NCBI GenBank assembly: GCA_001664505.1
Contig: CP011806.1
Coordinates: 4,512,149-4,546,331, forward strand
DNA from: Acidobacteria bacterium Mor1
Lineage (GTDB): Bacteria > Acidobacteriota > Polarisedimenticolia > Polarisedimenticolales > Polarisedimenticolaceae
Direction of reading: 5' to 3'
Length of the DNA stretch: 34,183 nt
In this document: in pieces, positions 22,169 to 30,439 of the stretch
How the letters are laid out: each line of letters starts with the position of its first letter
How positions within the stretch are numbered: position 1 is the stretch's first letter
Notes under the pieces: generated by a model
Database searches by the model: none
Seen by the model: the letters and a program-made list of their open reading frames with translations, nothing else
Told to the model about the DNA's origin: nothing
Program-made: the position numbers and the translations under genes

Positions 22169-22573
22169 CTAGCCCTCGCCGGGCTCCAGCCTCTCTTCAC
22201 CGACCACCCGGCAGACGTCCAGCGACGAGACCATCCCCACGACCCGGTCCCGGTCGACGATCGGCAGGTGGTGGATGCGAAGCCGCCACATCATCCGGCA
22301 GAGGTCGCTGACCCGGGTCTCGGGAGAAGCGGAGATCGGCGGAGAGGTCATGATCTCGCCCACCGCCGTCGCCTGCCTCCCCGACTCTCCGGACTGGCTG
22401 GTGCCTCCCACCAGCAGATCTTCCTGACTTACGATCCCGACCAGCTTCCCGTCCGGGTCGACGACCGGCGCGCAGTGAACGCGGGCGTGCTGGAACAGGT
22501 CGCAGACCTCCTCGGCAGGGTCGGTGGGGTGCACGGTGAGCACCCGGGTGGCCATCATATCGGCGGCGGTCAC
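22169..22573 (-). CDS. Tandem CBS-domain protein
   Basis: 134 residues, a complete CBS pair and nothing else. CBS1: MMATRVLTVHPTDPAEEVCD and CAPVVDPDGKLVGIVSQEDL; CBS2: IMTSPPISASPETRVSDLC and HHLPIVDRDRVVGMVSSLDV. The terminal G-[IM]-V-S-x-x-D segments are the adenosine-nucleotide ribose-binding motif. Such stand-alone pairs bind AMP, ATP or related ligands and regulate partner proteins. The GTG start overlaps the egtB stop by four bases (GTGA), so it is translated from the same mRNA. Why a CBS sensor is coupled to ergothioneine synthesis is not obvious. Confidence 0.93.
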   Translation of the reverse strand: MTAADMMATRVLTVHPTDPAEEVCDLFQHARVHCAPVVDPDGKLVGIVSQEDLLVGGTSQSGESGRQATAVGEIMTSPPISASPETRVSDLCRMMWRLRIHHLPIVDRDRVVGMVSSLDVCRVVGEERLEPGEG

Positions 22574-23841
22574 CGTGGATCCTCGGCCAGTCGAATGCCG
22601 GTGAACTGCCAGCGCATCGAGGGGTAGAAGAAGTTGCGATAGCTGCGGCGCATGTGATCGTGGGAGGTCACGGCGGCGCCGCCCCGGCAGACGAACTGGT
22701 TACACATGAACTTGCCGTTGTACTCGCCGATCGCTCCGTCGGGGCGGGCGTAGCCGGGGTACGCGGTGTAAGGGCTGCGGGTCCACTCCCAGCAGTCGCC
22801 GAACAGCTGATGGCGTCCACCGCCGTCGGCCCCGTGAGGCAGCGGATGCAGGGCGCCGCTGTCGAGGAAGTTGCCGGCGAGCTCGATGTCCGAGGAGGCG
22901 TGTTCCCACTCTTGCTCCGTCGGCAGCCGCTTACCGCTCCAGGATGCGAAGGCGTCCGCCTCGAAGTAGCTGACGTGGCACACCGGAGCATCCGGGTTCA
23001 ACGGCTCCAGGCCGTGCAGGGTGAACTCGAACCAGGATCCGTCTCGCTCGACCCAGTAGAGCGGCGCCTTCCAACCCTCTTCCCGCACCGTGGCCCAGCC
23101 GTCGGCCAGCCAGTGGCGCGGGTCGCGGTAGGCGCCCGAACTCACGAACTCCAGGTACTCGCCGTTGGTCACCATGCGGGACGCGAGGCGATAGGCCTCG
23201 AGCCAGCTCTTGTGCCGCGGGCGTTCGTTGTCGAAACAGAAGTCTTCACCGGCATGCCCGACCTCGACCAACCCCCCTTCGAATTCGAGCGCCGGGTCCG
23301 CCTGGACGGAGGTCGCCGGCGAGTCCTCGGCAGGCCGATAGGCCGGGTAGAGCGGGTTGCAGGAGAAGACATGCTTGATGTCCATCAGCAGCAATTCCTG
23401 GTGCTGCTGCTCGTGGTTCAGTCCCAGGGTGATCAGTTCGGCCAACGCCGGATCGTCGCCGCGTTGTTCGAGCAGTCTTGCGACCGCCTCGTCCACGGCA
23501 TCCCTGTAGGCGAAGATCTCGCGCACGGTGGGACGGGTCAACATGCCGCGGCGCGGCCGGGGGAACTGCTCGCCCACCGCGTTGTAATAGGAGTTGAACA
23601 GGTACTCGTAGCGCTCGTCCACCGGGCGGTAACCCTCGGCGTGGGGGCGCAGCACGAAGGTCTCGAAGAACCAGGTCACGTGGGCCAGATGCCAGCGGGT
23701 CGGGCTGACGTCGGGCATCGACTGGACGACGAAATCTTCGGGTTCCAGCGGCTCGCAGAGACGGCGAGAAGTGTCGCGAATACGCTTGAAACGGTCGGCA
23801 AGGCGCACGTTTTGCGCTGCCTGCTGCTCGGTTGCCCGCAT
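22570..23841 (-). CDS. egtB: EgtB, iron-dependent ergothioneine sulfoxide synthase family
   Basis: 423 residues from the ATG at 23841 with AAGGTG six bases upstream. EgtB joins cysteine or gamma-glutamylcysteine to hercynine with O2. The N-terminal DinB-like domain supplies the iron triad: His51 in TRWHLAHVTWFFE and the pair His143/His147 in LNHEQQHQELLLMDIKH. The spacing matches the known H51/H134/H138 triad of mycobacterial EgtB. The C-terminal FGE-sulfatase-like domain shows FEGGLVEVGHAG, FDNERPRHKSWLEAYRLAS, CHVSYFEADAFASWSGKRLP and CRGGAAVTSHDHMRRSYRNF. No egtD lies next to it; the following gene is a CBS protein. The substrate thiol (Cys or gamma-Glu-Cys) cannot be decided, and OvoA-type activity is less likely because no methyltransferase domain is fused. 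Confidence 0.95.
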   Translation of the reverse strand: MRATEQQAAQNVRLADRFKRIRDTSRRLCEPLEPEDFVVQSMPDVSPTRWHLAHVTWFFETFVLRPHAEGYRPVDERYEYLFNSYYNAVGEQFPRPRRGMLTRPTVREIFAYRDAVDEAVARLLEQRGDDPALAELITLGLNHEQQHQELLLMDIKHVFSCNPLYPAYRPAEDSPATSVQADPALEFEGGLVEVGHAGEDFCFDNERPRHKSWLEAYRLASRMVTNGEYLEFVSSGAYRDPRHWLADGWATVREEGWKAPLYWVERDGSWFEFTLHGLEPLNPDAPVCHVSYFEADAFASWSGKRLPTEQEWEHASSDIELAGNFLDSGALHPLPHGADGGGRHQLFGDCWEWTRSPYTAYPGYARPDGAIGEYNGKFMCNQFVCRGGAAVTSHDHMRRSYRNFFYPSMRWQFTGIRLAEDPR

Positions 23842-23966
23842 GGGTGGCACCTTTTTACCGGGGTTCTGGTCGAGACGTGCGAAACCGCATTGTCTCATCC
23901 CTCCCGGAGCGAGTCCACCGGGCGCCCCCTACGCCCCGCCGCCAGCCGCTGGTGTAGACTTCCCGG

Positions 23967-28952: not shown

Positions 28953-28983
28953 AAAGGGCGGACCCGCGGGTCCGCCCTTTTTC
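28953..28983. terminator. Bidirectional intrinsic terminator
   Basis: AAAGGGCGGACCC (28953-28965) pairs with GGGTCCGCCCTTT (28968-28980) as a 13-bp stem with a GC loop, followed by TTTC on the plus strand and TTTGTTGTTT on the minus strand. It serves the convergent glutamine synthetase and selenoprotein genes. Confidence 0.95.
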
Positions 28984-29007: not shown

Positions 29008-29625
29008 CTACTTGTTCATCGCCGCGGCTTCCGCCTTGGCCGTCGCGAGCAGCGCATCGGCATCGAGGCGCACCCGATAGTCCGGGTTGACGTAGCTGAA
29101 GCGGATCTTGCCGCCGGAGACCAGGAACACCGCCGGAACCGGCAGCATGCCGTGGTCTTCGCCGCTGGACTTGGCCAGGTCGATGCCGTAGCCGCGATAG
29201 ACCTCCTTGGTCTTGTCGTCCAGCTTGAAGGCGATCCCGAACCCCTGGGCCGCTTCCATCTTGGCGTCGGACATGAGGTCGAAGGCGATCTCGGTTTTGC
29301 CGAGGGTCTTCTTCAGTTCTTCCGGACGGTCGGGGCTGAGCGCCACGAGCCGGAACCCGAGTTCAACGAGTTGATCTTCGATCTTGGACAGTTGACCCAA
29401 CTGTCTGGTGCAGTACGGTCACCAACCGCCACGGTAGAAGATCAGGACCGCCGGGTCGTCCCCGGAGAGCTGGACGGTCTGGCCGTCCAGGGTCTGCACC
29501 GTGGCCTCGGGCACCGCGGAGCCGATCAGCAGGGGGCGGATCTCGCTCGCGCTCGCCGGCGCCGCGGCGTGTGCCGGCGCAAGGGCGAGTGCGAGGAGCG
29601 CCGCCGCGAGCAGCGTGCGTCTCAT
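29008..29625 (-). CDS. Selenocysteine-containing peroxiredoxin-like (AhpC/TSA, thioredoxin-fold) secreted protein
   Basis: 205 residues when the in-frame TGA at 29421-29419 is read as selenocysteine (U69). A signal peptide (RRTLLAAALLALALAPAHAA) precedes a thioredoxin-fold domain. Its active site is YRGGW-U69-P-Y-C72, where homologues have YRGGWCPYC, so Sec replaces the first (peroxidatic or attacking) Cys. The reading frame continues uninterrupted for 136 codons after the TGA with family-like sequence (LVALSPDRPEELKKTLGKTE, HGMLPVPAVFLVSGGKIRFS). A SECIS-like hairpin starts 13 bases after the TGA. The protein should be an exported thiol peroxidase or reductase. A nonsense mutation or sequencing error is the alternative, but conserved coding on both sides and the hairpin argue against it. 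Confidence 0.9.
29387..29405 (-). promoter_or_regulatory. Bacterial SECIS-like hairpin
   Basis: On the minus strand GACAGTTG GGT CAACTGTC forms a perfect 8-bp stem with a GGU apical loop. The loop begins 21 bases after the UGA at 29419, within the 16-37 range of bacterial SECIS elements, whose SelB contact is a G and U in the loop. The stem also codes for residues after the Sec, as required for bacterial SECIS. Confidence 0.8.
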
Positions 29626-29681
29626 CGTTCCTCCTCAGGATCGGGACAGAGCGCTCAGAGTATAGCGCCAGCCACACGGAC

Positions 29682-30356
29682 TCACTTCCCGCGCCGCGGA
29701 GAGCCCTTGCGGTCGATACCCCGGGGGCGCGAGAGGAACTGGAGTGACCGTTCCGAGGTGTCCGGGATGGTCCCGTCGAGCCGCCCGGCCAGCAGGTCCA
29801 GCCGGTCGTGCCCCCAGAAGAGTTCCCCCCGCCAGACGAAGGTCGGGACTCCGAAGGCGCCTGCGGCCAGGGCCTCGGTGGTGTGGGTGTGGAGCCTCGT
29901 CTTGATTTCCGGTGCTTGCAGCCGATCGGAGAGACCCTCGGCGTCTAGGCCCAGGGCCGCGATCACGTCGGCGATCACCGCCAGATCGGTCAGGTCTCGA
30001 CCCTCGGCCCAGGCTGCATCGGCGAGGGCGGCCGCCAGGGGCAGGGTTTCGGGCTCGTCGAGAAACAGGCAGACCGCCCGCAACGCTTCCAGGGAGCGGA
30101 AGGGATGCGCCGGAGGCCCCTGAAAGGGATAGCCCTCCCGGGCGGCGATGCGGCCGATATCGAAGAAGGTGTAGCGCCGCTTGGATTCGATCTCCGCCGG
30201 TCCGACCAGGCCGGTGGCGTCGAGCAGGGCCCCGTAGACCACCGGGCGGATGCGCCACTCCAGATCGTGGGCCCGGCCGAAGGGTTCGGCGGCCTTCAAG
30301 CCGAGCCAGGCGTAGGGAGAGATGACGTCGAAGTAGAGCGTGACCGGTTCGGGCAT
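29682..30356 (-). CDS. DsbA-fold oxidoreductase / 2-hydroxychromene-2-carboxylate isomerase-like protein
   Basis: 224 residues from the ATG at 30356, where GGAG stands six bases upstream. A start four codons earlier lacks one. It begins VTLYFDVISPYAWLGLKAAE, the mark of the HCCA isomerase/GST-kappa family of thioredoxin-fold proteins, with Ser (SPYAW) in place of a CxxC. The helical insert and the closing AAGAFGVPTFVWRGELFWGH, with a cis-Pro after GV, complete the fold. Members isomerise aromatic catabolites using glutathione or act as glutathione transferases. It is on the same strand as the selenoprotein gene (56-base gap), so the two may be co-expressed redox proteins. Confidence 0.93.
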   Translation of the reverse strand: MPEPVTLYFDVISPYAWLGLKAAEPFGRAHDLEWRIRPVVYGALLDATGLVGPAEIESKRRYTFFDIGRIAAREGYPFQGPPAHPFRSLEALRAVCLFLDEPETLPLAAALADAAWAEGRDLTDLAVIADVIAALGLDAEGLSDRLQAPEIKTRLHTHTTEALAAGAFGVPTFVWRGELFWGHDRLDLLAGRLDGTIPDTSERSLQFLSRPRGIDRKGSPRRGK

Positions 30357-30439
30357 GAGGGACTCCATCTGCCGGGGGCATCCATCGGGAATCGCATCTA
30401 TTCTACGGGGGTCCGTGCGACGTATTTCGAGGGAGCCAG

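Follow-up and report, generated by a model that had tools for sequence, protein, structure and literature searches.

Strain Acidobacteria bacterium Mor1 carries, on the reverse strand of its chromosome, a redox protein gene whose reading frame is interrupted by an internal TGA. This raises the question whether the codon ends translation or is read as selenocysteine (Sec), and which kind of enzyme a Sec-containing product would be. The window analysed here is the whole stretch of 34,183 nucleotides (CP011806.1, positions 4,512,149 to 4,546,331), and all features with their coordinates are collected in Table 1.

Table 1 Features of the predicted selenoprotein gene, its surroundings and the Sec machinery. 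Positions refer to the window, except those marked "genome"
Feature	Position	Strand	Remarks
Predicted selenoprotein gene	29008–29625	−	205 codons including one UGA (Sec), ATG to TAG
Ribosome-binding site AGGAGG	29630–29635	−	ahead of ATG at 29625; from sequence
Probable signal peptide	29566–29625	−	residues 1–20, putative cleavage after AHA; by inspection
In-frame UGA, predicted Sec	29419–29421	−	residue 69 (WUPYC)
Codon of Cys72	29410–29412	−	second residue of the UxxC pair
Predicted SECIS hairpin	29387–29405	−	stem 29405–29398 with 29394–29387, loop GGU 29397–29395
AhpC-TSA/redoxin domain	residues 34–175		PF00578, 1.8e-22; PF08534, 1.3e-15
DsbA-superfamily gene (PF01323)	29682–30368	−	upstream, codirectional; TGA stop 56 bases before ATG
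Terminator-like hairpin	28953–28980	−, both strands	12 pairs, bidirectional
tRNA-Sec (selC)	genome 1275848–1275941		72.7 bits, above gathering score; ARAGORN: SeC, anticodon tca
selB	genome 1342028–1343863		330 bits, cut-off 242
selA	genome 1427034–1428410		516 bits
selD	genome 2910488–2911429		358 bits; one internal TGA

An internal TGA at the active-site codon

Translation with table 11 splits the frame into a head of 68 codons and a separate tail ORF, while the phase downstream of the TGA is unchanged through the TAG at 29010–29008. This confirmed the first-pass annotation, which had described two frames of the same phase split only by this TGA. If the TGA is read as U, a single protein of 205 residues results, with its sole U at residue 69 within the motif YRGGWUPYC (residues 64–72). 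The AhpC-TSA match covers both halves of the frame, so the TGA lies inside a single domain. Gene callers of the standard kind would truncate the product at residue 68 or place the start past the TGA. As a consequence the Mor1 gene and its orthologues are likely to be misannotated.

Alignment of homologues placed the TGA exactly at the first Cys of the family motif YRGGWCPYC, as had been proposed. Of 29 loci taken from a named genome collection, five have TGA at the Sec69 codon and the others TGC or TGT, and the Cys72 codon stays TGC in all TGA forms. Two of the five TGA records come from Thermoanaerobaculia/Acidobacteria, with 53 and 49% identity, and three, less closely related, from Poribacteria. 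Within the family of Mor1 the gene is present in four of six genomes, each time with one internal TGA (4/4), and in 297 genomes of the phylum 18 matches exceeded 140 bits, 17 of them with one internal TGA.

Alternatively, the gene could be a Prx-like gene of the Cys type that appears interrupted through a sequencing error or was truly disrupted by a nonsense mutation. A change of TGC or TGT to TGA needs one base only, and Cys is indeed present in most homologues outside Acidobacteriota. Nevertheless, the identical TGA recurs in many independent assemblies, the reading frame downstream of it is conserved, and a SECIS with compensatory change is confined to the TGA forms, which makes this explanation extremely improbable.

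The Mor1 genome (5.985 Mb, one contig) contains selA, selB, selC and selD, so that the complete set of genes predicted to lie elsewhere in the genome was recovered. The selD gene (G000:C1:2910488-2911429, L020) is a selenoprotein gene too, with its in-frame TGA at SCAGUASK and a hairpin GGCGCAG-GUG-CUGCGCC that begins about 26 bases past this TGA. Thus, at least two genes of the Mor1 genome require UGA to be read as Sec. In 21 of the 22 other genomes with Sec forms selA scored above the cut-off (all but G135, an assembly in 750 contigs), and tRNA-Sec exceeded the gathering score in 21 of these 22 as well (exception G039). Four genomes of one genus with Cys forms only (G169, G279, G077, G293) are without selA. 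The selA gene was also present in genomes of the same order that do not have the Prx-like gene; according to this, the Sec machinery is not maintained for the Prx-like gene alone.

A reading of the UGA as Trp, Cys or Gly, or leaky readthrough, in each case without selenium, would likewise keep the frame open. This is very improbable, since the codirectional neighbour upstream terminates at UGA as an ordinary stop codon, the Sec machinery of Mor1 is complete, the SECIS is linked to the TGA forms and the homologous residue is Cys and not Trp. For practical purposes, sequencing error, pseudogene formation and a recoded genome can be dismissed. The comparison, with selA, selB, selC and selD in the genome and the TGA kept in independent genomes, gives good support to a predicted Sec codon and hence to a selenium-containing redox protein. 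On these sequence data, Sec at residue 69 together with a UxxC redox pair is highly probable.

A putative SECIS hairpin downstream of the TGA

The predicted hairpin, GACAGTTG-GGT-CAACTGTC (29405–29387), starts 13 bases past the TGA and has eight Watson-Crick pairs, with the GGU loop bases at +22 to +24 after the UGA. A small apical loop containing G shortly 3′ of the UGA is what is expected of a bacterial selenoprotein gene. Position and pairing were thus correctly given in the first-pass annotation. The hairpin alone, however, is weak evidence for a SECIS, and it is the comparison across genomes that decides.

Single-sequence folding was rejected as proof of a SECIS, because the z-score of the Mor1 hairpin was −0.7 and those of single sequences ranged from −0.3 to −1.4. 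For codon sampling, synonymous codons were drawn for the same peptide and the pairs at the hairpin register were counted; seven or more pairs arose in about 10% of the draws and eight Watson-Crick pairs in 2%. An Rfam scan of the region returned a chance match only.

At least six pairs at the register were present in 26 of 29 Sec loci compared to 0 of 36 Cys loci (maximum two pairs), where the Sec loci include many close relatives (genus g89) and the counts overstate independence. Seventeen distinct sequences, Mor1 included, are a fairer basis. In this set standard pairs occupy 89% of cells, double-sided (compensatory) changes occur in five of the eight stem pairs, and the covariation score is 0.381 versus 0.164 ± 0.027 in shuffles. 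Shifting the partner strand by one to three bases left at most 51% paired. The hairpins read, for example, GACAGUUG-GGU-CAACUGUC in Mor1, GCAACUG-GGU-CAGUUGC in L022, GCAACUC-GGC-GAGUUGC in L048 and GCAGCUC-GGU-GAGCUGC in L057. A GGU or GGC loop is found at equal distance in Sec homologues of Acidobacteriota and Poribacteria, with three exceptions among the Sec forms: the loop has five bases in L054 and L083, and the hairpin is one base off in L056. The encoded peptide QLGQL itself tends toward a palindrome. Nevertheless, two Cys forms (L025, L034) encode QLG(E/Q)L and are without such a hairpin; thus the peptide does not account for the hairpin pattern. Conservation of the predicted hairpin across genomes exceeds chance.

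For the proposed mechanism, SelA and selenophosphate supplied by SelD would make Sec-tRNA-Sec. SelB carrying this tRNA would bind the GGU-loop hairpin 3′ of the UGA and Sec would be inserted at residue 69.

Active site and probable reaction

In phmmer comparisons with solved structures, the FSPVC motif of the Aeropyrum BCP (2cx3) aligned with its Ser on Sec69 and with its Cys, the peroxidatic one, on Cys72. In a thioredoxin-family protein (3hdc) UPYC aligned on CPYC. From both alignments Sec69 appears as a thioredoxin-type nucleophile at the Thr/Ser position of peroxiredoxins. The canonical peroxiredoxin motif PxxxT/SxxC is absent, as Sec69 fills the Ser/Thr position, and all homologues have Sec or Cys where the peroxidase motif has Thr/Ser, giving CxxC or UxxC. 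Besides this pair the homologue alignment contains no conserved Cys and none at +5, the resolving position of PrxQ. A structure model (pLDDT 89.4) has a strand at residues 59–63, followed by Sec69 and a helix at 70–80. The solved folds nearest to the model are Bcp4, ResA, BcpB and AhpE, that is, Bcp/PrxQ/AhpE types and ResA. The earlier label "peroxiredoxin-like" thus holds for the fold and the AhpC-TSA domain, but not for the active site, where Sec69 occupies a thioredoxin-type UxxC position and Cys72 the peroxidatic one.

The protein is more probably a thiol:disulfide oxidoreductase, which may also act as a peroxidase, than a peroxiredoxin of the usual type. The geometry of Sec69 and Cys72 moderately favours thiol:disulfide exchange as the main reaction. 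Sec might also be inserted into an enzyme that is chiefly a peroxidase, as the Pfam AhpC-TSA assignment, the top fold matches to Bcp/PrxQ/AhpE peroxidases and the alignment of Cys72 with the peroxidatic Cys of 2cx3 would suggest. The replacement of the peroxidase-motif Thr/Ser in all homologues and the absence of the PrxQ resolving Cys argue against it, and we consider a mainly peroxidatic role rather unlikely. For the thiol:disulfide oxidoreductase, a thioredoxin/peroxiredoxin fold is expected in which Sec69 starts the first active-site helix and Cys72 follows one turn further. The exported Sec69 would attack a disulfide or a peroxide, Cys72 would resolve the adduct to a Sec-Cys selenenylsulfide, and an extracytoplasmic reductant would regenerate the pair.

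Probable export, neighbouring genes and related families

The N-terminus MRRTLLAAALLALALAPAHA-AAP has, by eye, a hydrophobic core and an AxA motif and is without a lipobox Cys. Hydrophobic N-termini are also present in the f54 orthologues and in the other three orthologues of Mor1's family; the distant Poribacteria forms have none with the start codons assumed. The claim of a signal peptide is consistent with this typical N-terminus shared by close Sec orthologues, and export, as judged by inspection, is probable. Exported selenoproteins are known, among them formate dehydrogenases whose catalytic subunit is periplasmic. Listed Dsb-type selenoproteins are a further example (PMC13188914). With the Mor1 protein, Acidobacteriota gain a clean case, backed by comparison, in which selenium is probably used outside the cytoplasm, and Sec/Cys pairs of this family are suited to testing what an exported oxidoreductase gains from Sec.

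The upstream DsbA-like gene was not found beside the orthologues when their flanks were searched, and its product was rejected as a conserved functional partner because the neighbour is not conserved. On the other side, the terminator-like hairpin separates the selenoprotein gene from a convergent gene for a type III glutamine synthetase.

A 2005 report described UxxC selenoproteins of the Prx-like type (PMC1088965). In 2006 they were listed as "Prx-like thiol:disulfide oxidoreductase", with four selenoproteins of three families for Acidobacteria (PMC1794560). "Prx-like 1" was found 225 times in ocean samples (PMC2398784), and the family appears in a 2026 review table (PMC13188914). As judged from the published descriptions of the type sequences (e.g. 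WP_010940744.1), the Mor1 gene is a further member of these known selenoproteins: it shares the AhpC-TSA domain (PF00578), UxxC replacing TxxC/TxxU and a SECIS just downstream, and differs by its probable signal peptide and the YRGGWUPYC signature. Cys-type proteins annotated as "peroxiredoxin-like family protein" (YRGGWCPYC; Bacteroidota, Verrucomicrobiota, Paraglaciecola and others) are 36–53% identical over most of the length and have the same invariant residues, but their genes have TGC or TGT instead of TGA and no hairpin. SelL and SelL-related proteins (NF040769) resemble the Mor1 protein in the Prx-like fold and in Sec within a CxxC-type motif. The NF040769 match, however, reached 43.3 bits, far under the 120-bit cut-off, and the SelL motif is UxxU and not UxxC. 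Sec-peroxiredoxins (TxxU) and BCP/PrxQ share fold and AhpC-TSA domain, whereas the Mor1 protein has Sec at the Thr position and Cys at the peroxidatic position; it also lacks the resolving Cys of PrxQ.

A search of viral contigs found no relative of the Mor1 selenoprotein, and plasmid relatives are at most 41% identical and cover less than 80% of the protein. A mobile origin was rejected for these reasons. In a tree of 51 homologues the Sec/Cys label changes nine times, at least three changes being forced by well-supported branches; thus the exchange between Sec and Cys took place repeatedly. A literature search on selenoproteins in Thermoanaerobaculia found no paper in the library searched. 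It is conceivable, though we hold it only tentatively, that exported UxxC Prx-like proteins with repeated Sec/Cys exchange form a subfamily, mostly of selenium-using Acidobacteriota, and belong to an extracytoplasmic selenium-dependent redox pathway not previously described in this phylum.

Sec occurs in three groups of the wider family, namely that of Mor1, a WUP(Y/F)C group with QLGEL and an FRGxWUPYC group. Both the WUP(Y/F)C group (L047-L049, L057-L059), from Poribacteria and the phylum of Mor1, and the FRGxWUPYC group (L056, L083) share the site of the TGA and have hairpins resembling a SECIS. In L058 the Sec Prx-like domain opens an open frame of about 500 residues, perhaps a fusion. Elsewhere in the window, a reverse-strand gene (22570–23898) combines DinB_2 and FGE-sulfatase domains, the layout of an EgtB-type sulfoxide synthase, which points to ergothioneine-like redox biology.
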